Shown here: in pieces, positions 27,447 through 62,748 of the stretch
How the letters are laid out: each line of letters opens with the position of its first letter
Numbering within the stretch: position 1 is the first letter of the stretch
NCBI GenBank assembly: GCA_949130485.1
Contig: OX422199.1
Location: 906,402-970,401 of the forward strand
DNA from: Agelas oroides
Lineage: Eukaryota; Porifera; Demospongiae; Agelasida; Agelasidae
Length of the DNA stretch: 64,000 bases
Direction of reading: 5' to 3'
The notes under the pieces: model-generated
Seen by the model: only the letters and a program-made list of their open reading frames with translations
Told to the model about the DNA's origin: nothing
Databases searched by the model: none
Program-made: the position numbers and the translations under genes

Positions 27447-29237
27447 TCAGTCATGCGTTTCTTCCTCAGTACTTGTATGTCGATGTTCAAAATATTCCTC
27501 TATGTAGACCCGCTCATTTATAATTTCGTCTCTCTGCCGATAAGTGTACCTTCTAGCAGTTACGACATAGGAGACTAGCCCAGCAAAACCAAACACCATG
27601 CTGAGAAGGTAGTAGTAAAATCCACAACTTGGTAAGGTGGGAGGCAGATTCTTCCAGGGACCAAATGAACTGAATGGTAGTATGAACACAGCTCCCAGCA
27701 GCTCAAATGCTCCCCTCAGGGCAAAGAATAACCCCATGAGAAGACCCTTCATGGAGTGTGGGCTTTGGGCACAGATGAACTCAAACATGGCTACCTTGAT
27801 GAGCGAATATGCAACGCCATTCAGTATGTTGGGGATGAGAAGAACAGTTGTATCAATTTGCAAATTGTCATTTGTCAAATTACCATTAGTGATGGTATCT
27901 GTTGACTTGTTGAGATGATAGTCCATTTGGAACATACAGGAGACGTTGTGGTGCACTCCATGGCCAACAGTGTCAATTACAAAGTTGCACACAACGCTCA
28001 TCCAAAGTATGATCATTCCTAGGCCTAGTCGCTTCAGGATTCCAGGCATGTACCTCCAAAAGTAGGGGTGAACAAGGCGGATGTAGATAGGAAGTAGTAT
28101 GATTGCTATTATGGTTGTAAGGATTCCTGATTCAATGAGAACTGCATTCGCACTACACTCTGGAACTGGATTAGGTCGCATGTGTTTGGCAAGAAGAGGA
28201 ATGGAGTACAATGCTGGAATTTCAATGACATACATCGAGCAAGCAGCAACAAGCACACCCAAGATACGCAGCAGTGTTTTCACGTCTTCAACCTGTTCAG
28301 TGGTAAAGGGACCACCGTACTTTTGCTTTCCCAGATCAATTCGCTTATAGGGCTTATTCTCACAGTATGTCATGGCACTGCGTTGAATCGGGTGTTTGTG
28401 CTTCTGAGCAAATTTGAGAACTTGCAGCACGGTCTTGTACGGGTTCTGATTTGCAGGTAGAGATGTGAATAAACTGTACACTGAACAACTGTAGCAAAGA
28501 ATACACATTAGTCCAAGAGTGATTAAGAATGTTACAAATGTTGCCACATCCATCACTACCGTTGGTGAGCAAGAATAAAAAGTGAAAGAAAGTTCTGAGA
28601 CTATGTGTCCAACGTAATCAGCCCAGACGTACCAGTGAATAAAGAAGCTCAGCTCTTCTCCTGGAGCTTCTAGCAACTGATCTGTCCCAAACTGCACGAC
28701 ATTAGCCTCAAAGCCAGCAAGTCCCACATACAGTACCACTCCAATAACCAAACCAACAACAACAAAGAGGATCTCAACGCCCCCAGTTAGTTTGTTATTC
28801 AAGTGTATGTAGTAGAGCACTGCAATACCAACTGAAGTGACAAGCGATGCAATCCATGTGAGCCAGAGGCTGGTCAACAACATTTTAAACCTACCAACAC
28901 AGACATCAGCAATGAAGCCACCCAAAGGGTAAAAGAGAGTCAGAAGTGCTTGGCTAGCGTATGAAACAAGCGCAATCGCTGCAAAGTGGGGTAAACCACG
29001 TAAGCCTCCATACTTGAGGAATACAAGTATGTATGCAGTCACTTTTGGACCAAAAACAGCAGCCACAAAGAGCTTCCATATAATCACGAGAAATGCTGGC
29101 TTTGATCTCACACACAGCAGTTGGTGTTGCCGATGACAACATGCACGGACAGTGGCTGTGCGAGACAAGGGCTGCAGTAAGGGTTGGGCCTCATTACTGT
29201 CGTCAAGATCTCTTCCACCATGGCCTGGACGATACAT
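27447..29237 (-). CDS. POT/SLC15-type proton-coupled peptide transporter, copy 1
   Basis: A single exon encoding 596 residues, an integral membrane protein with about 12 spans. The family signature is recognisable in PLGGFIADVCVGRFKMLLTS after the second span. The middle has a cytoplasmic loop with KYGGPFTTEQVEDVKTLLR, and the C-terminal bundle contains SLIKVAMFEFICAQSPHSMKG, a typical POT C-terminal motif region. The first 45 residues are cytoplasmic and contain a QPLLQPL acidic-dileucine-like sorting motif. The expected role is uptake of di/tripeptides or related solutes with protons; the substrate cannot be told from sequence alone. It is paralogous to 31535-33304 and nearly identical to it in the C-terminal half. 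Confidence 0.85.
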   Translation of the reverse strand: MYRPGHGGRDLDDSNEAQPLLQPLSRTATVRACCHRQHQLLCVRSKPAFLVIIWKLFVAAVFGPKVTAYILVFLKYGGLRGLPHFAAIALVSYASQALLTLFYPLGGFIADVCVGRFKMLLTSLWLTWIASLVTSVGIAVLYYIHLNNKLTGGVEILFVVVGLVIGVVLYVGLAGFEANVVQFGTDQLLEAPGEELSFFIHWYVWADYVGHIVSELSFTFYSCSPTVVMDVATFVTFLITLGLMCILCYSCSVYSLFTSLPANQNPYKTVLQVLKFAQKHKHPIQRSAMTYCENKPYKRIDLGKQKYGGPFTTEQVEDVKTLLRILGVLVAACSMYVIEIPALYSIPLLAKHMRPNPVPECSANAVLIESGILTTIIAIILLPIYIRLVHPYFWRYMPGILKRLGLGMIILWMSVVCNFVIDTVGHGVHHNVSCMFQMDYHLNKSTDTITNGNLTNDNLQIDTTVLLIPNILNGVAYSLIKVAMFEFICAQSPHSMKGLLMGLFFALRGAFELLGAVFILPFSSFGPWKNLPPTLPSCGFYYYLLSMVFGFAGLVSYVVTARRYTYRQRDEIINERVYIEEYFEHRHTSTEEETHD

Positions 29238-31534
29238 CTCTGCACCAATTCTGTTGGAAAGAAATGATCAAATTGGGTTTTGTTTCTTCTATTGCATCTG
29301 ACAGTACCACCTACACTGCTATTTGGTATGTTTACTACTGCAGGGTACATGTGTCATGGCAAAAGTTTTAATATCAGTGACACTAACTTCTTGATTTAGC
29401 TAGCTACATCTGTTTTTACGAATTGCTGTAGTGCTACATGTCAACTAAAGTCAGAGTTCATAGCAGTGATAGCACCATGCACCAATATGGACATTGTCAT
29501 GAGAACTGTTTGCAGAAACCACTATACCAGTCTACTGAAACATAAAAAACTTACGTACTACCTATGTCTGATTCTATATACATGTACACTTGTTCCAAAT
29601 ACGATGCATATTGGGTGTACTCACGTACAAGCAATGTACTGTAATGTTCCCATAATCTGAGCTCTTTTTCAGGAGCTTTCAGTAGTGGTCCTACACACAT
29701 CTACATTATAATACTGGCAATCTATAGCTGTATATACACATGTTCAAAGACTGTAAACTATGTATCAACAAGTTGCATGCTACTTGATCTTACCTTGATG
29801 AAGACTCTTATCTCACCAACACAGTGTAAGAGGGCACGTAACTTCCATCCCATGCGTCTGTTATGATAATACTGAATGAGCTGAAAGAAGTGGACAGAAT
29901 AGAGTTTTGTAAACATGCACATTGAAATGCACATTGAAACCAATGCACATGCACATTATGTTGATAACTTGCAGGATCACATGAGCTTCCCAACAAGTGA
30001 CGAATAAGCATTGAACCTCTGCAAGTACCAGTATGTCATTAGCCTTGTACCCAGGCCGTTCATTAAAAAAAAACAAAAAAAAACGGAACAGCTCGGGTAT
30101 TATGTGTGAACAGTCCATGCATCACACATTGAACTTTCAAGCATAAGGTCAGTCAATACTCAGGTTTCTTGACTAGCCATGGCACCTGTCATACATGTTG
30201 TTGAAGTTTTGGTCCACATCTTGAAATGTTTATTTAAAACGCTCAGGGTTGACTCGCCATGAAACTTGCCTGGCTGCCTTGGCTTCACCAGAGGGGCATG
30301 TAGATGGGATATTGTTGATTACAAAAGTCCTGCTGTCATTGTGACCAAGGACAAACTTGTTAGCTATAATTATGCAATATGCCAACATCAGGAAAGACAA
30401 TATGCAACAGACTCACATCATATCTAATTATGCGAAAATGATCCTTATGGTGAGGAAGACCCACATTGAATAGCAGCTGGAACCCCAGTGTTTGTACCTG
30501 CTATGCATATGAAAAATTTACCTTGCAAAGACACTGTTTAATGCAATTTCAGAGCTGTGATCTGCTCTCTGACTAGGAAGGTGACAGAAAGTGTGTAGTG
30601 GTGGATGGGTTGACACTCAGTGTGGTCAATGTTGCATTGTAATTATAAGTAGACAGGCAGTGGGAAAGTATGGAAGCTGTTTAGCACAAGGAAAGAACAG
30701 CTATGTTGAAACTGAAACGGTGCATATGCAAACACTATACATGTATATATTGACTTGACATATTATTGTTACACACATACTGTGCTATAGCTACAGGAAG
30801 TCATGCACGAAACTTGTAGTGTAGTAGGGACTCAGGTCTGCAGATATGTAACAATACAGGGGAGACAAGTAGCATCTAGAGTTTACACAAAACATAACAG
30901 CTACTCTTATAGTAGTCAATTCTCTAGTAAAGTTAATTGTTACATGCAGTAGCACAATGGAGACTTATATTGTGAACAAAACGCAATGAACCACATCTCC
31001 CTGTTTGTCATGATGACTTGCAAACTGAGGAAACCATTATTATCAGTGGCTAATCGGAGCGCACTCGTGGAGTGTTGAGAAGCACAGCGTCAAGCACTAT
31101 GCATATTTGAGAGTAAGAAAACTTTGGCAGGCTTGTAATATCTCACGCTAGCATTAAACCCTGCAAGTATGTCACTGGACTAAGTTAGCTGCAAGTTAAC
31201 ATGACAATGTCTTTATTGCTTCACAAACCAGAGGCTATCAAATACAAACTCATCAATTTCCCCCCCGTTACTTATATGTAAACATATACCCATGAAACTT
31301 GAAAGGCAGGCCTAGATGTTATGCAAAGTCACCCATTGCACAGGATGTGAATATACCAGGCCTCATCAGCTGCACTGGGGTGACTGGGAGCTGGGAACTG
31401 CTATCTCAAGGCAGTCAGGTGGCTGGCCTTGTCCATATGGCACTTTTCTTTCTCTTGTTCAATTTTAAGGGGTTAATAAAATTGATGACAACATTGATTA
31501 TACTGTTGAGTGTATATACTAACTATAATTGTAT
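29238..31534. other. Intergenic region with duplicated gene scraps
   Basis: There is no intact gene between the two transporters. The stretch 30655-30990 repeats the end of the phosphodiesterase gene and its downstream flank (25100-25440), including GGCAGTGGGAAAGTATGG. The part 31306-31395 is a copy of the GACCTAGATGTTA/AGTCACCC repeat family. Confidence 0.6.
30230..31262. pseudogene. WASP-like gene fragments
   Basis: About 30300-30360 reads on the plus strand as RWDIVDY..PAVIVTKDKLV, the centre of the WH1 domain. About 30378-30510 matches the next part of the same domain on the opposite strand. About 31205-31262 resembles the gene's 3' end on the minus strand. The pieces are inverted relative to each other and contain stops, so this is a rearranged dead copy left from duplication of the 25-29 kb block. 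Confidence 0.6.
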
Positions 31535-33304
31535 TCAATCACGCACATCTTCCTCAGCATAATGATGTTCAAAGTATTCCTCTATGTAGACCCGCTCATT
31601 TATAATTTCGTCCCTCTGCCGATAAGTATACTTTCTAGCAATCACGACATACGACACTATCCCAGCAAAACCAAACACCATGCTGAGAAGGTAGTAGTAA
31701 AATCCACAACTTGGTAAGGTGGGAGGCAGATACTCCCATGGACCAAATGAAAATGGTACTACGAACACAGCTCCCAGCAGCTCAAATGCTCCCCTCAGGG
31801 CAAAGAATAACCCCATGAGAAGACCCTTCATGGAGTGCGGGCTTTGGGCACAGATGAACTCAAACATGGCTACCTTGATGAGAGAATATGCAATACCATT
31901 CAGTATGTTGGGGATGAGAAGAACGGTTGTATCAATTTGCAAATTGTCATTTGTCAAATTACCACTAGTGATGGTATCTGTTGACTTGTTGAGATGATAG
32001 TCCATTTGGAACATACAGGAGACGTTGTGGTGCACTCCATGGCCAACAGTGTCAATTACAAAGTTGCACACAACGCTCATCCAAAGCAGGATCATTCCTA
32101 GGCCTAGTCGCTTCAGGATTCCAGGCATGTACCTCCGAAAGTAGGGGTAGACAAGGCGGATATATATAGGAAGTAGTATGATTGCTACTATGGTTGGAAG
32201 GATGCCAGATTCAATGAGAACTGAATTCACACTACACTGGGAAGTTGAATTAGGTCGTATGTGTTTGGCAAGAAGAGGAATAAAGTACATGGCTGGTATT
32301 TCAATGACATACACCGAGCAAGCAGCAACAAGCACACCCAAGATACGCAGCAGGGTTTTCACGTCTTCAACCTGTTCAGTGGTAAAGGGACCACCGTACT
32401 TTTGCTTTCCCAGATCAATTCGCTTATAGGGCTTATTCTCACAGTATGTCATAGCACTGCGTTGAATTGGGTGTTTGTGATTCCGGGCAAAATTGAGAAC
32501 TTGTAGCACGGTCTTGTACGGGTTCTGATGTGCAGGGATAGTTGTGAATAAAGTGTACATGGAGCAACTGTAACAAAGAATACACATTAGTCCAAGAGTG
32601 ATTATGCATGGCATAAATGCAATCATGCCTATCACTACCGTTGGTGAGCAAGAATAAAAAGTGAAAGAGAGTTCTGAAACTATGTGTCCAACATAATCAG
32701 CCCACGCGAACCAGTGAATAAAGAAGCTCAGCTCTTCTCCTGGAGCGTCCAACATCTGGTCGGTTCCAAACTGAACAACATTAGCCTTGAAGCCAGCAAG
32801 CCCTACAGCCATCACCAATCCAAAAATTGAACCAAGGACAATAAAGGGGACCTCGATACCCCCAAGTAGTTTAGTATCATCTTTAACCAAATAGAATGTC
32901 ACTGCACCAACTGAAGTGACAAGCGATGCAATCCATATGAGCCAGAGGCTGGTCAACAATGTTTTAAACCTACCAACATAGACATCAGCAATGAACCCCG
33001 CCAAAGGAAAGAAGAGTGTCCAAAGTGCTAAGCTAGTGTACGAGGTAAGCGCAATCACCACGAAGTGAGGTAAACCGTGTAAACCTCCATACTTCAGGAG
33101 TACGAGTATGGCTGAAACCATATCTGGACCATAAACCGCAGCCACGATAAACTTCCATACAGTCACGAGGAAAGCTGGCTTTGATCTGACACACAGGAGT
33201 CGATGTTGCCGGTGACAACATGTACGAAAAGTAGCAGTACGAGACAAGGGCTGCAGTAAGGGTTGGGTCTCATTCAGACTGCTTTCATGGCCTCGGTGAT
33301 ACAT
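31535..33304 (-). CDS. POT/SLC15-type peptide transporter, copy 2
   Basis: A single exon encoding 589 residues, with the same architecture as copy 1. It has a cytoplasmic N-terminus with QPLLQPLSRTATF, the family motif PLAGFIADVYVGRFKTLL, a central loop TTEQVEDVKTLLRILG, and the C-terminal SLIKVAMFEFICAQSPHS bundle. The N-terminal half differs from copy 1 at many residues, while from about the central loop onward the two are almost the same in DNA as well as protein. That pattern suggests recent gene conversion of the 3' half. The start lies about 140 bp from the 8.2 kb element. Confidence 0.85.
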   Translation of the reverse strand: MYHRGHESSLNETQPLLQPLSRTATFRTCCHRQHRLLCVRSKPAFLVTVWKFIVAAVYGPDMVSAILVLLKYGGLHGLPHFVVIALTSYTSLALWTLFFPLAGFIADVYVGRFKTLLTSLWLIWIASLVTSVGAVTFYLVKDDTKLLGGIEVPFIVLGSIFGLVMAVGLAGFKANVVQFGTDQMLDAPGEELSFFIHWFAWADYVGHIVSELSFTFYSCSPTVVIGMIAFMPCIITLGLMCILCYSCSMYTLFTTIPAHQNPYKTVLQVLNFARNHKHPIQRSAMTYCENKPYKRIDLGKQKYGGPFTTEQVEDVKTLLRILGVLVAACSVYVIEIPAMYFIPLLAKHIRPNSTSQCSVNSVLIESGILPTIVAIILLPIYIRLVYPYFRRYMPGILKRLGLGMILLWMSVVCNFVIDTVGHGVHHNVSCMFQMDYHLNKSTDTITSGNLTNDNLQIDTTVLLIPNILNGIAYSLIKVAMFEFICAQSPHSMKGLLMGLFFALRGAFELLGAVFVVPFSFGPWEYLPPTLPSCGFYYYLLSMVFGFAGIVSYVVIARKYTYRQRDEIINERVYIEEYFEHHYAEEDVRD

Positions 33305-33556
33305 CTCTAGACTCTACCCGTAGGTTTACAAATCTATGCTTTAATATCCGGCCGTGACCATGACATTTGGTATCCTCGCATTCTCAGGCGGCGAACATGA
33401 GAGCACTCGTACGAGTACGCCACGGAACTGGAACAGAGATACATACTAGCCTCGTTCCCAGGCTCCTCCGCTCCGGAACGTGAAATTGAACTTGTGCATG
33501 CGGAGAGAGCCTAGTATTTTTTCTCACGTGAGCACCGCCAAAGCTAGAACGGAGGT

Positions 33557-36359: not shown

Positions 36360-39300
36360 TTATCTTATCCTGTATCTGTTTTGGATTTCTCTGCACAGGG
36401 GATGGTTTTTAAGGAAAGTAGAGCACTCAGATAGACTCGGTGTTTTTCTGAACTTTAAATAGTCGTCAAAATAAAGCCGAACCGTTTCTTCCTCTTCAGC
36501 GGAAAATGGTACCCTCCTCTTCGGAGGAGTGAGGGCTTGGATGGTGGTCGGCTTTGCAAGGGCAGGGCTGGGACTGGAAGTGGTAGTGAGGGAATTGTCA
36601 GGTGTGGTAAAGGCAAGGGTTTTGCCGGGGTCAAGGGCACTGGGTATTAATTTCTTTTTCTCCTTCCTCATTCTGTTGAGGCTGACAAAAGCCTCAGCAG
36701 CATGTGATGGCCCTGAGAGGGCCTGATAGAATCTTGCGTCAGTTTCAGTACTGTGGGAGAGCTGCCGTGTGACTAGTGCAGCCTCTGGGCTTGAGAGGTG
36801 ACGGGCTGCCTCTGTAGATGCTCTCTTGCGTACATCTGTTGCTGTAATCGGTTTTATGCCAAAGCTTTTAGCTAGTGTCCTAAAACGTGCATTAAAGTTT
36901 GAGAGTTGTTTTGCACCATCAAGGCACAGCAAATAAGGACACTTGCGATCCGGGTCCTGACAGGGTTGTACCACCGTTACATACGAGTGCAGCTTTGACA
37001 GGTCTTCAGGTGGGATGACCAGCTTTGCACTTCCAAACAGACCAGTCTTGTGGTCAGCAACCCTCAGTACTGTTACAGTCTCACCGTCTTGCACTATCTC
37101 CTGGCTGTTACGGTACTCAGCCATGGTCGCATTTGCAACGGCACCTGGCCGCTGCCAGCTCCGAAAGGTGAGCATAGCAGCGACCATAATGGTGCAGGAA
37201 TCCATTTCCCGCTTAGACACTGGTAGATCCTTTCCCACCCTGTCTACGATGTCATTGAAGCTCTTCCACATTGACTTGTCCTGAATCACCTCGTCCACCT
37301 CATCCAGGGTAAGATTTGAAGAGCTCAGATCCTCCATCCTTTTCATTCTGTGTTTGGTCTTTTCTTTCCGCAGCGTACACTTCCATCCTTTAATTGTGTC
37401 GGAGATGCGCATTGCGCGTTTAAAAATGGAATTATCCGGGTCATCCTTACACAGGTTCCTCCGCATGAACATCAAGCCTGCGTCCAGAGCGTCCAGCTTT
37501 GAGATTTGTCCGTCTGCCTCAACCTTGAAGCGTTTGAGCTTGTCTATATATGCAATGATCATGTCACGGTCGAGAAGCCGCTCCCAATTTGGGAGTGGTG
37601 CTGTCCCACATGCAAATTTTAAAAATTTGCTAACATCTGTCGTGATTTCGTGGGCAACCTTAGGGCTCCTTCGATTGCCGTCAATGTTCTGGAGGAAAGC
37701 TTCAAATGACATGAGTGTACTCTCCGAGTTTGAGTACCGCGGAAAGCTTCTGGTGCCAACTCCCTCGTCTTCCCTCTCCATAACCTCCTCCTCTTCACTA
37801 GAAACCGGTCTTGGTGGTCGAATCACCTGTTCTAAAGTAGGCTGCCCCTTTGTAGCCCGCAGCACCACCCGGTTCTTCTCAAACCTTGGAACCTTCTTTG
37901 CGTTCTTGATCATTGGCCGGCGTTCCTTCTTGCTGATGTTCTTGTGTTTCTCATCAAAATGGTTGGACAGTTTCACTTGCGGTTTGGCCCGGCAGCCTGG
38001 AATTGGGCACACTTTTCTGAAGTTCCTCTTGTTGCTCTTCCGCTTGCCACTACTGCCTTTCCCTTCTGTTGGACAAGCAATAGAAGTTTGAACTGAAGCA
38101 TTCACTTGATAAAGTGAACCCTTCAAATCTGGAGATTTGTATACGTATGCCATTCAGCCTGGTGTAACTAAATATTAGTTAATAAAAGTAGATGTACACT
38201 ACTGAGTTATTACCATGAATATTTAGTTTGGAGGTTAAATAGTTAACAAGCCAAGTTATTAAGTCCGCTCTCATTGTAGTGTGATGAGGTTGCAGAATGT
38301 GCATGCGAGAACTACATAAACCTAATTTAAATTAGTAAAATTAGTGGTGTAGTCCCTTTGGCTTAGATTATTAATCACAACTAAATGTGGTGAGAGTAAA
38401 AACTAAATTAGAAGAACTATCAATTGATTTCCTTATATATGGTAATGTTAACCCACAAAAGTGTAGATTCCACTTTTCTTACCCTGCACTTGGACTATCA
38501 CTGGGTCATCACTTGAAGCTGTTGGAGTAAGCACATGAGCAATTGCTGTAAATACTTATAAAAATGATGTAGCATGCAGTTGTAGTAAAAAATGTAGGAA
38601 CAGTAGGCAACAATTGGTAAAGGGACTTATACTTTGTAAGGCTTGCTAGGCATTATTTTTGAAAAATTAGAACTGAATTCAGTCGCAAAATTTAATTTCT
38701 GTGACGTGTTGAACACTGGTAAGCATTATTTAGGCATCAAAATTACCTACAAAAATCGGTAGTAAGATTTCTGCCAACTAATATGGCCACAAAAGTATAC
38801 TGACGACTAACAATAACTTACACTGCTCATCATCGTCACTGTCCTCGATCCACAAAGCTCTCTTCTTTCCTATCATAGAAGAAAAATAAAACCTAATGGT
38901 AGGCTTATCTTTGCACAAGTTTTAAATTCCATTAAAATGCTGACACTGGTAACTGACAAAAAATACCAAAATTCAGACAAAGCAGCTCTGTCAACTAGTA
39001 CGGCATTCAGTATGTTATGACAGCAACTTACTCATCTCACTCTCATTCCATCTCCTCTTCCTGGTTGTTGGCAGCTTCACCTCCTGGAACCTCACCTGGA
39101 AGTGCAGTTGATAAAAACCTTGAAAAATTTTGGTGCTGAAGTAATCATTACTTGGAGGTATGCTTTGTAGGTGTATTCTCTTAAAAGATTGACATGGCAA
39201 AATACCATTTCATCTTCCTCTTCACTGGACGATGTTAGTCGTCCCCTGTAGGGAGGTTCCTCTACAGTTGCACCCCTTGAAGATCCCACATATTCAAGCT

Positions 39301-56474: not shown

Positions 56475-57160
56475 AGTATACTGGAATATGCAGACATTTT
56501 GCTACACCTACTCATACACCATCATGACAGTGCCAGGTCATTTAAATTTTCATGTACAGTGCATTCAACTCGTTGAACAGTTTTTATTATGATATTGTGA
56601 AGATGACATGCTGCTTTGTTTGTGAAAGAATACTTTTTCACAATTTATAATTCTTGAGTGTATTAAATATTGCTGCTGCAACTGTCAGTGCTGTCCATGA
56701 GAAGCTTGTACCCCATAAGACCAGCCACAGGTTGTGCATGGAGTTCATTTTTTTTTGCGGCTAGCTGTGTGTTAGTTACTGCGTGGATATGGAAGGTATT
56801 CATAGAGTCCGCCACTGTGTTTCTTGCATGAGATAGCAGTCCCCATCTCACACATGCAAGCAAGTTAGCTATAGCTTCCACAGAAAGCGATTTGGAACAG
56901 ATTTGTAGTTGGTACATATTTCTCGACTTCAGTCTTTTCATAGATATTATAGACTAGTTACTAATCTATAATATCTATGGTCTTTTCTACTCAATTTTTG
57001 TGGTGAAAAAGCTGCAAGGTTGACATCACATCCCAATACAGCATCATTCCCATTCCATTCTGCTAGTTTACGTTCCGTTCCGCTAATTATCCATTCAGCA
57101 ACTCAGCCGGACAAAACTGATCGTTCTTTCAACTAGCTTCCACAATCGCGGTCTGGTGAG
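56475..57160. other. Intergenic region between EB1 and the selenoprotein
   Basis: It holds the EB1 3' untranslated region and the selenoprotein promoter. At 56940-56981 a palindrome (CATAGATATTATAGA / TCTATAATATCTATG) could form a hairpin. No other gene is seen. Confidence 0.5.
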
Positions 57161-60100
57161 ATGGCTACGACTGAAGAAGACCAGCAGATCACGGAGCAAG
57201 CGGATCCTTCCTCTCAGGAACAAAACGGACCCGCCAGCGAGGACGCTGCGCCCGAGCCCAGCTCTGGACCACCGTCTGATTGGATCGCATGGTTCAACTC
57301 AACCATTCAGCAGTACGACGCCACTTTCATCGTCTACTACCGCGGACTGTGGTGACCCTACTGCAAGGCTAGTAAAACCATGTATACTAGTAGAAGATCG
57401 AACGTTGTGGGGCGACAAGCAATAACTTTTTCTTTTTTACGTGTGTATTAAATCATCCAGATAGACTTGTGCAGCCTAACTGCAGCTGCTAGTGTCATTA
57501 GGCGCAGCGATCAGCTATGATGAAAGCCCCACCAAGATGGTAAAGGCTGAACCTTCCTATAATTAGGGATGCTTGTTCCAACTAGACAGATAATCATCAT
57601 AGCTGATCGCTGCGCCTAATGACACTAGCAGCTGTAGTTAGGCTGCACAAGTCTACACGTAAAAAAAAGTTATTGCTTATCCGAAATTTCGCGGAATGTC
57701 TCCAGACCCTCCAGAAGAAATTTCCACAGTTTTAATTTTTTTGGAATGCGAGTCATGCAAGCCACACCCCTACCAAATGATTGCCACGCCTCTTCCTTAA
57801 CACGTGCAAACCTGGCACCTCCCAAATCAGTCACAGTCAAAATCGACGTCAATGATGACGAAGCGAAGAGCTAAGTTGCTACAACAGTCTTCTTTCTTGT
57901 AGAGGCAATGGTCAGAGGCTACAAGGACATTTTCCTAGTTCATGGTTTTTATTTTTGCGGTTGCTGATCAATCCGTGACAATCGAGAAAATTTGCTCCCA
58001 GCGAAAATTTCCTGGTATACGGTGTTAGTATGGAGTGCGCATGAAACTGTAGGAGGATCTCCTGCTACCTTTGAGCAGACTGACTTCTCTTTCATGCTTG
58101 AGAGAAATTACTGCCTCCAAATTCCCATTCACAGGCACACTTCTGTAACGCAAGTTTCACATTCCTCTTTGTAAAATAGTGTGTATCTAGCAAGACTATC
58201 CCGCTCTCCTCCCCTTGTGACTTCCTGTAACATTACATCATTCTGTACTAGGTTTTAGAATACACACACACACACATACACACACACACACACCCTCCTC
58301 TCTGTATCTGCAGGGCTACCTCAAGGAGTTCAACGAACTCATTGAGGAGCTCCGGGGAAAGAAGGTGGGGATATTTGGGATCTGTGCCGAGGCACGACAG
58401 GAACTGGCCGACCAGGCTGTCAAAGACTGGGGGCTCCACTTCCAGGTACCTACCCTTGACCTTTTGACCTTTCTCACATAATTACACTTGAAACAGATGG
58501 TGGATGGATATTTGTTGAGCAGTAGGAAGACGACGCTCATTGGAGCATTAGTACAGTGGTAGAGTTTGTGAGCTTACACCGACAACGAGGCGTGTAGGTA
58601 AACATATTTGCTTCAGTGAGCTGTAGGTCCTGTTGAGACCTTGCGTGTTCTGTGAAGTGTTAACCAGTTCTTGCACTCATGCAAAACGAGCTTGCAAACT
58701 GTCCCGCTGTGTTCAAGCTTCTTGCTCTGTTTTGCCACTCAATGGCAGTGTAATTATTTGGACGTCTGTCCACTGTCAGTTTCATGTGTAGTTACACAAA
58801 CATTGCAATGTGTAAGAGACACATAAGGTCCTATTAACAGAAGGAAGCTTCTCTGCTACCAGCTTAGGATTGGAGGAAGACTTTTGCCTGTTGTGAAGAT
58901 GTGGAGGGTGTGTTTAGACCAACATCAGACCTTATCCACTACCACGAGTTGACCACGATAAACAAAATAAAACAATTGGCAGCCAATATTTACACTTGAG
59001 CCCACTCAGTAGGGCTGAGCCCTTATATCAGCCTCGTTTGGAACCGCTCCCAGGCCTTCACTGCCTCTAGACTGTCACTGTCTCCGGTCTCTGATTGCTT
59101 ACAGTATGCAAATACGGAGGGGAAGGGCCTGGAAGATCGGGTCATGTGCAGTGATGTCAGGTAGACAGAGGGTAGACTGTTAGACACAGGAAGGTTAGAC
59201 GCAGGTTCAGAGTTCTCCCATTCTACCATCCTTTCAGCACTCACATGAGAAAGATACCAGGCTCTCTCCTGTTTTACCATCCTGCAAGCCACAGAAAGCT
59301 GGGCAGTTATCACATGATCCTTCTCATTTTGTAGCTGGACACAAGGTTAACACGTTACCTTTCTTCTTCTGCAGTGTTTCTCTGACCCGACCCACGTCCT
59401 GCGAAACTACCTCTCCGAGGAGGGGCTCATCACGATCAGGATCTCTGGAGGGGAGAACGCTACCGACTCCAACTTCTACCAAGTTCATCCCAAGATCAAA
59501 CATTACAAGCACGGAGTGGCACAACCAGGTAGGAGCTAGCTCAGTGGCTTCTCAGCTGGGTCCTGCATAAGTGGAAAAAGGGTTCTCTATTACCAACTTG
59601 AAATCGAAAATAACTTTTACTAAAGGAGTCAGTCATCAGGGTGAAAGTGTATAGAGGTGTGAACAAACACTACTGTTTATGGTCATGCACCACTCAGTCG
59701 ACCTTTGACCTCCAATGAGGTGTATATCCTTAGTAGTGCATGGCTATAAGTATAGTGGTGTTCTGAAATGTCAGCAAAAATTTTTTTTGTTGTTTGCATG
59801 TTCACACTTTTTCACTTTCACCTTATGACAACTGGAGAAGCACTTGATTGAAATGTCTGGCAAAAAGTTTTTTTTTTTTTCATAATCAAGTTCGTAACAG
59901 CGAGCCTTCGTTCCATTTAGGAGATCCTAGATACGGCCCTGGTAGCAATTTCTCATCTTGTTACGAGGCTTCTACCCAGATTGTAGCTGTGGGGAAGAGT
60001 CTGGGTGGAGGGCTGGGAATTTTAACAAGGCTAGGTTGGAGCCTCAACAGCTCACACAAATATTTTGCACTTCAAGATGATGACAAATTAACCACATGGC

Positions 60101-61623
60101 GGTATTTGGCACCCCACCTTAAAGCAGTTGTGTAAACTTGTTACCTAGGCAGTTGCTGAAGAATGTTGCTCACACACATGAACAAACAATGAACCACATC
60201 TCTCTTAGTCAAGACCCCACCCTCTCACGAGGAAAAGGGTCTGGTGACCATTGAGCATTTTCTTGTGTGTGCCGAGTCAGCAGTCTTGATTCTGAACAAG
60301 CCAATGAAATAGCGCAACGTTGTACAAGCGTTGACACTAACCAATGAAATAGTGCTACGTCATAAAGATATAATCATTCACTTATTCGAAAATCAAGATT
60401 GCTGACTTGGCACAACCAAGGAAGCGCTCAATAGTCTGGGCACACTACATCTTCCTAAAATAGACCTAGGTGTTATACAAAGTCACCCACTGCGCAGGAC
60501 ATGATTTGGTCAATACCAGGCCTTATCAGCTGCGCTGAGGTGACTGGGGGGATGGGGACTGCTATCTCATGCACAGAATGCACTTACATGTACACCTTTT
60601 TAATTCTACATGCAGTGGGTGTTGCCTAGGTAACAAGTTTGTTAATGTTATTGTATCGTCTATTTCTTCTTCAGGCGTGCTATGTGTGAAGCCAGATAAG
60701 ACCGTGCTGTATGCCTGGGCCATCGACCCCAGCGTTGTGAGTGGGTGTAGGTGTGAGTAGGAGGAGGTGTGTGGGTGGGTGTGTATGCCTGGGCCATCAA
60801 CCCCAGCATATGTGAGTGGGTGGAGGTGTGAGTGTGTGTGTGGGGGTGTGTGGCATGTGAGGGGTGTGGATGGGATGTTGAGTTGGTGGTGGGCACATGC
60901 ACGATTACATAATATCTTCTGGTATTTGTTAGCATGGAGACAGAAAGCTGGGGTCAAAGGTCATGTGAGTATAGTGCCTGATCATGTGGTTGCTGAGTGT
61001 AGACATTAAAGGTTGTGGACTGTCCATTAAAGGTTGTGGTTGTGAGTTGTAGCACCTGACAGGACACGGCACCATGGTTGTGTTGTTTTATACTATCAAC
61101 AATCGTTGTGGAGACCTGAAAGGTCTACCGTGTCTGTACTTTTCCAGCTTCTGAGTCCAAAGCGATCAGTCTGAGAACGCAGCAAAGATAGAGTGAAGTG
61201 AAGATTTGGTAGTCGCTGGGAATCGAACCTGACTTGAGCTGCCAGGTCTTTGACCTGGTTCAATTTCTGCAACTACCAGATTTTTCATTTTCATTTTTTG
61301 CTGATATTGATTGTAACTGTTTTGTTACCATGGTAACTCACTGCCACACCTCCTCCACCTTTTTAATACTACCACTGGTACCACTGTTAACATCACAAAA
61401 CACACGTCTCCTCACATATCCACACCCACACCCTCATAACCCCCCCCCACACACACACACACTACACACACAGATGAACCTCGGGGGTGCATCCGATCGT
61501 CCAGTCCCTCGAGATATTTGGACCATTATTCAAGCCAAACTTGCCGACCCAGAGAACGCAGACAAGATTGAATACAATCGCATACGAAGACGAGGAGTGT
61601 GTTCTCTCTGCGCCATTTTGTAG
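57161..61623 (+). CDS. Peroxiredoxin-like selenoprotein (Sec-x-x-Cys) with C-terminal CaaX motif
   Basis: A thioredoxin-fold protein of the AhpC/TSA-related peroxiredoxin-like family, expected to act in thiol redox reactions. The exons are 57161-57367, 58314-58445, 59375-59528, 60675-60736 and 61474-61623, giving 235 codons with the TGA at 57353-57355 read as selenocysteine. The active site becomes RGLWUPYCKGYLKEF, where homologues have CxxC, so the TGA sits exactly at the first catalytic Cys. Downstream exons continue the fold (GIFGICAEARQELADQAV, RISGGENATDSNFYQVHPK, HYKHGVAQPG, VLYAWAIDPSVMNLGGASDR). Intron 1 starts with GC (AAG|GCTAGT), the only donor that keeps the frame and the KGYLKEF motif. 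The C-terminus RIRRRGVCSLCAIL resembles a polybasic prenylation signal. A SECIS lies 184 nt past the stop. The N-terminal 45 residues are acidic and disordered. Confidence 0.9.
57417..57679. mobile_element. 263-bp inverted-repeat element in selenoprotein intron 1
   Basis: AAGCAATAACTTT at the left pairs with AAAGTTATTGCTT at the right. The pairing continues through AGACTTGTGCAGCCTAAC and GCTGCTAGTGTCATTAGGCG. It lies about 50 bp past the GC donor. It is non-coding. Confidence 0.88.
60470..60555. repeat. GACCTAGGTGTTA / AGTCACCC repeat copy
   Basis: One of at least five copies of a family containing GTTA.RCAAAGTCACCCACTG and CAGGCCT.ATCAGCTGC. Others are at about 6686-6775, 25440-25490, 31306-31395 and, inverted, 62398-62500. 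Several are preceded by GAACCACATCTCCCT. It lies in selenoprotein intron 3. Confidence 0.7.
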
Positions 61624-61806
61624 ACGAGAGAACCGAGTGGATATTTCATATACGTGTAGATTACCGTTTTCAGATTGCCATGATAATTAATTTTAGCAAC
61701 CAACCGAGTGATCAATCTTAATCAAAAACAATCATGTTTCAGTTTCGTTATTAGTATGACTTGTTCTGTAGATTTTCTGTTGGTTGTACTTTGCACTCTG
61801 TGTCTC

Positions 61807-61855
61807 ATGACGAGGGACGCACTAAACCAGTTTACACTGGAGTGCTCCCTCTGAT
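61807..61855 (+). promoter_or_regulatory. SECIS element, type II form
   Basis: The core is ATGA (61807-61810) opposite TGAT (61852-61855). The helix between them pairs GAGGGA with TCCCTC and GCACT with AGTGC, with one bulged C. The apical AAA is at 61824-61826. A further small hairpin, CCAGT-TTAC-ACTGG (61827-61840), makes it type II. The spacing from ATGA to the As (13 nt) is in the normal range. It recruits SECIS-binding protein so that ribosomes insert selenocysteine at the upstream TGA. Confidence 0.92.
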
Positions 61856-62018
61856 GCTATTGTACACATGTTGCCATGGAAACCAGACAGTTGTCTGCAG
61901 ATCTGAACTTCATTAAAGACCAACCTTGTTACAGTAGCAGTGTAGAAATACTTGTGTCCGAAATTCCACGAATCAAGTAAAAGAGATACGTTATTTTCTT
62001 TCTTGGTTTGTGCATTAT

Positions 62019-62653: not shown

Positions 62654-62748
62654 TAGCCCCGTTCCCAGGCCTGCGCCCAGCTTCCCGTCGGTTGCAGTAC
62701 CGTACTGCAAGCGACGGGAAGCTGGGTGTGGGCCTGGGAACGAGGCTA
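62654..62748. mobile_element. 95-bp TAGCCCCGTTCCCAGG foldback with 9-bp target duplication
   Basis: Long arms TAGCCCCGTTCCCAGGCC / GGCCTGGGAACGAGGCTA continue into CAGCTTCCCGTCG / CGACGGGAAGCTG. The flanks AGCCATGCA (62645-62653 and 62749-62757) are identical. Confidence 0.92.

Follow-up and report, generated by a model that had tools for sequence, protein, structure and literature searches.

Sponges are known to encode selenoproteins built on an AhpC-like domain. Three of them (Aq.AphC.like a-c) were described in Amphimedon queenslandica by Jiang et al. 2012 (PMC3473315; this and the other papers cited here are used to the extent of their available excerpts), together with related proteins from Oscarella carmela and Suberites domuncula, and in the excerpts of that paper the authors state that they found no homologues in other eukaryotes. 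Here we analyzed a 64,000-nt stretch of the sponge Agelas oroides (assembly GCA_949130485.1, contig OX422199.1, positions 906,402 to 970,401 of the forward strand), which is called the window throughout and which carries a five-exon gene. From its sequence, and with a probability of about 0.86, we read this gene as encoding a 234-residue AhpC/TSA (thioredoxin-fold) selenoprotein with selenocysteine (Sec, U) at codon 65. The gene shares with the family of Jiang et al. the sponge host, the AhpC/thioredoxin-like domain, a local homology to prokaryotic AhpC around the Sec residue, and a selenocysteine insertion sequence (SECIS). It has five coding exons, like Aq.AphC.like c, whereas members a and b have two; a CaaX tail, which the window gene carries, is not mentioned in the excerpts of the paper. 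The window gene very probably belongs to this family, the comparison being one of descriptions and not of sequences, and since such sponge proteins were published in 2012 it is not a new kind of selenoprotein. Our analysis adds a gene model, a bacterial relative, the assignment of Sec to a thioredoxin-like site, and a predicted lipid anchor.

Two further systems are alike by description, and not sequence by sequence. AhpC_b of Thalassiosira oceanica (PMC7539508) is also a eukaryotic AhpC-TSA selenoprotein with a UxxC site, its known relatives being Cys forms from prokaryotes, but its host is a diatom alga. The peroxiredoxin (Prx)-like thiol:disulfide oxidoreductase selenoproteins (PF00578, UxxC/UxxU; PMC13188914) share the domain and the UxxC layout, but they are prokaryotic.

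Gene model and relatives of the window protein

When spliced, the five exons (Table 1) give 234 codons followed by a TAG stop, and the sole internal stop is the TGA at codon 65, located in the context RGLW-U-PYC-K. The initial annotation, made from the letters of the window, had proposed five exons in a single frame of 235 codons, and this model was borne out. An in-frame TAG lies upstream of the ATG, at position 57134, and the product matches the AhpC-TSA domain PF00578 with 38.3 bits (cut-off 26). Introns 2-4 are of the GT-AG type and intron 1 is GC-AG. For intron 1, the GT/GC donors after positions 57320-57419 were combined with the AG acceptors before positions 58260-58344, which gave 15 in-frame combinations. 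Of these, 57367/58314 is the only one to connect CK to GYLKEF with no gap relative to the CQAYLREL sequence of L026, the bacterial relative described below. The other 14 combinations were rejected because the active site is lost, or because residues are gained or lost with respect to the bacterial homologue: three that start at the GT donor 57332 avoid the TGA but remove VYYRGLWUPYCK, nine that use donors 3' of 57367 add residues absent from the homologue, and later acceptors lose residues. Since the 57332/58314 splice is open and in frame, the TGA could in principle be bypassed by alternative splicing. However, this donor (ATC/GTCTAC) is poor and the product would be devoid of the entire YRGLWUPYC active site, the stretch that does not vary in the family alignments, so that we regard such a bypass as extremely improbable. 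Inspection by eye showed that part of exon 4 is repeated within intron 4 (TATGCCTGGGCCATCAACCCCAGC, window 60784-60807).

A search of the sponge genome with the window protein returned six matches, i.e., its own five exons and a decayed copy of exon 1 (loci L007/L008, C17:714438-714515, minus strand, ~250 kb away), which reads LWQPYYW in place of LWUPYCK. The closest relative among the matches listed (E value 1e-29, the next being 1e-13) is L026, a Cys-form protein of an Acidimicrobiales metagenome-assembled genome (CALLPT010000095.1), and the remaining open frames of its contig look, by impression, bacterial. L026 is 34% identical to the window protein over 171 columns, and both contain WGLxxQxxSDP and VLYxWAxxPxxxNLxGASDRPxPxDxW; the bacterial protein differs in having Cys where the window protein has Sec, in being without a CaaX tail, and in carrying Ser at the cis-Pro position. 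A sample of 396 genomes of its phylum, searched with a strict limit (E<=1e-15), gave one match, L026 itself, and no relatives of the window protein were found in the viral contigs and phage records searched.

Cys was found at the Sec site in the other relatives as well. Among plasmids, 12 records matched and 6 were fetched, and all 6 carry CPxC at this site, the query having had Cys typed there. In a scan of a genome collection (at least 592 stretches, at least 420 relatives, 80 kept) the pattern demanded CP at the Sec position, so that Cys is present there in the 80 loci by construction; the second Cys, which the pattern did not require, was present in all 80 of these bacterial loci. In the bacterial relatives examined, the residue that corresponds to Sec is the first Cys of YRGxxCPxC. 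In a tree of 79 of the 81 rows (two short rows were excluded) the window protein paired with L026 with support of 99/89, but long branches meet at this pair and the join is therefore not secure, as the tool itself warned. Acquisition of the gene from bacteria by transfer is possible.

SECIS element and probable selenocysteine decoding

A type II SECIS had been predicted 184 nt past the stop, and the fold, a strict sequence pattern and a full-length Rfam match all confirmed it. Its ATGA lies at that distance, and a stem-loop downstream of the stop contains the eukaryotic core AUGA/AA/UGAU. The element folds with -26.8 kcal/mol (z -3.49; 1 of 200 shuffles was at least as good). With both strands of the window scanned, the strict pattern detected two sites, of which the one at 61807 folds at -23.5 and the other at -5.6 kcal/mol. 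When 40 shuffled windows were analyzed with this pattern, a mean of 1.05 sites was observed, and in total three sites reached -15 kcal/mol and none reached -20. An Rfam scan of the 501 nt after the stop (4227 families, both strands, E<=1) gave the SECIS as its sole match (RF00031, full length, all pairs standard), with 26.5 bits and an E value of 0.0051, below the Rfam gathering score of 35. In a genome-wide RF00031 search 25.2 bits corresponded to an E value of 1.5, so that a score like that of the window SECIS is expected about once by chance; it is the location directly behind the gene that makes the element significant. In this search 150 of the 3834 candidates were scored, and none of the five matches listed reached the Rfam cut-off. 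The window SECIS is missing from its results because so few candidates were scored.

The genome is that of a sponge, since it contains exons of the silicatein type, in which Ser takes the place of the cathepsin Cys, a trait that serves as a sponge mark (PMC6233156, excerpts): a search gave 55 matches, 30 loci were fetched, and among the 21 inspected CGASYAF was found in three and CGASYVF in one. Two components of Sec decoding, tRNA-Sec and SepSecS, were also found in it. Two copies of tRNA-Sec (78 bits each) are present on contig C16, with four weaker matches under the cut-off, and ARAGORN confirmed the one copy that was submitted to it. The two genes (C16:6146481-6146566 and C16:6177681-6177766, minus strand) have equal scores and lie ~31 kb apart. 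SepSecS gave six matches on C18, all above the cut-off, one of them with stops within the aligned stretch.

Other redox genes with in-frame TGAs were revealed by the PF00578 search of the genome, and these form a separate, SelL-like family. Six of its loci, including a split one, cluster in 41 kb of C3, and C1, C7 and C9 hold a single locus each. PF13911 is above its cut-off in this family, and NF040769 reached 90-94 bits against a cut-off of 120 in the two members tested. The active sites alternate between UxxC (UPPC, UGPC twice, UGEC and USPC) and UxxU (UGPU, UGKU, USPU and UPPU). Eight loci were scanned with a looser SECIS pattern, and in seven of them a closely similar SECIS-like site was observed 30-64 nt past the stop, with none in L114; other sites, probably due to chance, were present in three of the eight. 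With cmscan (E<=5) a SECIS was reported in one of seven of these loci (L116, 26.6 bits), an indication that the SECISs of this genome are weakly recognised by the Rfam model. The C1 copy may be decayed, since it has a further TGA outside the motif. The C3 family could correspond to members a and b of Jiang et al. (tandem, two exons; PMC3473315); on one point, the lack of homologues in other eukaryotes stated in the excerpts of that paper, the window gene is the better fit. The SelL-like series is a natural set of diselenide and selenenylsulfide sites, and it is perhaps more unusual than the window gene.

The initial annotation's selenoprotein reading is thus supported by the coding sequence conserved on both sides of the TGA, the Cys of the relatives, the SECIS behind the stop, and the fact that the genome also has tRNA-Sec, SepSecS and further redox genes with in-frame TGAs. 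In a decayed or mis-assembled gene, by contrast, a Cys codon would have become TGA by mutation or sequencing error, and translation would stop at codon 65. Decay does occur in the family, as the exon-1 copy on C17 indicates, but the rest of the window gene is intact: all five exons and their splice sites are in place, another 169 codons follow the TGA, and a SECIS lies shortly after the stop. The genome also has tRNA-Sec, SepSecS and further redox genes that combine in-frame TGAs with SECIS-like sites, and we regard decay or mis-assembly as very improbable. Several points do weigh against a selenoprotein of the proposed kind. The gene model requires a rare GC donor for intron 1, Cys was written into both homologue searches, long branches meet at the pairing with L026, neither the window SECIS nor any of the genome matches listed reaches the Rfam cut-off, and the SECIS of the Amphimedon family is reported with GUGA (PMC3473315), compared with AUGA in the window gene. 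We nevertheless favour the selenoprotein, in which the ribosome would insert Sec at codon 65 by means of the SECIS and tRNA-Sec.

Table 1. Coordinates of the window gene, its signals and the SelL-like loci (window positions unless a contig is named)
Feature	Position	Strand	Basis or remark
Exon 1: start, low-complexity N-terminus, DATFIVYYRGLW-U-PYC-K	57161..57367	+	PF00578 match starts in exon 1
In-frame TGA read as Sec, codon 65	57353..57355	+	Opposite first Cys of YRGxxCPxC; bacterial relatives
Cys68, second residue of the UxxC motif	57362..57364	+	Sequence and alignments of relatives
Intron 1, GC-AG, contains inverted repeat	57368..58313	+	TGCAAG/gctagt...ctgcag/GGC
Exon 2: GYLKEFNELIEELRG...WGLHFQ	58314..58445	+	Splicing and genome self-match
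Exon 3: CFSDPTH...KHGVAQP; includes Pro164 at the cis-Pro position	59375..59528	+	Splicing, alignments
Exon 4: (G)VLCVKPDKTVLYAWAIDPSV	60675..60736	+	Splicing and genome self-match
Exon 5: MNLGGASDRPVP... up to the TAG stop (61621-61623)	61474..61623	+	Matches NLFGASDRPLP of bacterial relative L026
C-terminal RRRGVCSLCAIL: polybasic stretch, extra Cys228, CaaX box CAIL (Cys231)	61585..61620	+	Sequence, background count; putative lipidation
SECIS, type II: ATGA (61807), AAA in apical internal loop, apical hairpin, TGAT on 3' side	61799..61868	+	Fold, pattern, Rfam
ATTAAA, possible poly(A) signal 3' of SECIS	61912..61917	+	Sequence
SelL-like loci (L109-L114, L116, L118, L127-L138)	C3:4808310-4849363, C1:7258886-7259806, C7:399867-400775, C9:5274165-5275348		Tandem expansion on C3

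Placement of the selenocysteine and proposed chemistry

A profile of 20 bacterial relatives was aligned to solved structures. In this alignment the first Cys of the family, i.e., the Sec site, faces the Ser/Thr of the S/TxxC motif in two peroxiredoxins (2cx3 and 2ywn) and, in ResA, the leading Cys of CxxC, whereas the second Cys of the family faces the Cys of the S/TxxC motif, and its Pro (Pro164 in the window protein) faces the Arg of the same two peroxiredoxins. In peroxiredoxins the first Cys has been lost (TxxC) and the cis-Pro position is occupied by Arg (PMC2757866, excerpts), and by these traits the Sec site is thioredoxin-like. The Ser that L026 carries in place of Pro at the cis-Pro position speaks against such a site. 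An alignment of five sequences with MAFFT also paired the Prx Cys with Cys68; the profile alignment was the one relied on. The structure model of L026 (predicted local distance difference test, pLDDT, 83; predicted template modelling score, pTM, 0.82) had 3u5r, an uncharacterised protein, as its first structural match, followed by peroxiredoxins, with ResA and DsbE also among the matches listed. The query template modelling (TM) scores ranged from 0.42 to 0.56 among the 50 matches listed.

We read the window protein as a candidate thiol-disulfide oxidoreductase on a peroxiredoxin-like scaffold, and not as a proven peroxidase. In the profile alignment Sec occupies the first Cys of the thioredoxin type and not the peroxidatic position, which refines the earlier description of the gene as peroxiredoxin-like. 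A true peroxiredoxin function, with Sec serving a peroxidase, would be in keeping with this domain, with the peroxiredoxins among the structural matches of the L026 model and with the second Cys opposite the Prx Cys; it is nonetheless unlikely, since the PxxxT/SxxC motif is absent, Sec stands in the Thr/Ser position, and Pro replaces the Arg at the cis-Pro position. On the same grounds a classical peroxiredoxin was rejected. Two selenoprotein families were rejected as well: SELENOU/PRXL2, since PF13911 (AhpC-TSA_2), which we take to be linked to SELENOU, was not among the Pfam matches listed at E<=1, and SELENOL, since NF040769 (SelL-related) gave 17.7 bits against its cut-off of 120.

If the protein is an oxidoreductase of this type, Sec65 would be the attacking selenolate of the U-P-Y-C redox pair, acting on disulfides or other oxidised substrates. 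During thiol-disulfide exchange Sec65 and Cys68 would form a selenenylsulfide, as in thioredoxin or ResA, and Cys68 would release Sec65, which would thus not act as a classical peroxidatic residue.

C-terminal tail, neighbouring features and significance

The window protein ends in RIRRRGVCSLCAIL, a polybasic sequence with the CaaX box CAIL, which looks like a geranylgeranylation signal; Ggamma2 ends in CAIL. The window contains 2080 stop-to-stop frames no shorter than 20 aa; four of these end in a CaaX-like box, and one of the four also has at least three basic residues just before the box. This frame is the tail of the window gene, since the latter carries both. The CaaX box and the basic stretch would probably anchor the protein to a membrane, on the cytosolic side. 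We tentatively put forward, as a possibility that falls short of even odds, a membrane-tethered selenoenzyme in which a UxxC Sec is combined with a geranylgeranylation box (polybasic, extra Cys, CAIL), so that a selenolate oxidoreductase would work at the inner membrane face. Its fold would be one that a rare bacterial Cys protein also has, and it may have come from bacteria. By analogy, MIEN1 (PMC3527542, excerpts) is a precedent for a prenylated thioredoxin-fold redox protein: it is kin to a selenoprotein family and its C-terminal CaaX box (CVIL) is geranylgeranylated, but it is SelW-like, has Cys instead of Sec, and belongs to another family. Among the titles listed by a literature search none names a prenylated selenoprotein, which is not proof of absence.

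Other features were observed in the window. Long inverted repeats at 57483-57634, 60246-60436 and 62654-62748 resemble small mobile elements, and Rfam miRNA models match them far under their cut-offs. Two very similar open frames of ~600 aa (27447-29267 and 31535-33313, minus strand) give the impression of a tandem duplicate of a membrane transporter. A 597-aa open frame (36360-38153, minus strand), whose C-terminal half is tyrosine recombinase-like, is by impression possibly a Crypton-like mobile element.

A gene finder that takes the TGA as a stop would truncate or split the window gene. The 259-Mb sponge assembly (141 contigs) now provides a full gene model for a kind of eukaryotic selenoprotein that, within the excerpts of PMC3473315, is reported from three sponges only. 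A bacterial Cys relative is now available for comparison with the sponge selenoprotein, and the membrane tethering of the latter is a directly testable prediction.

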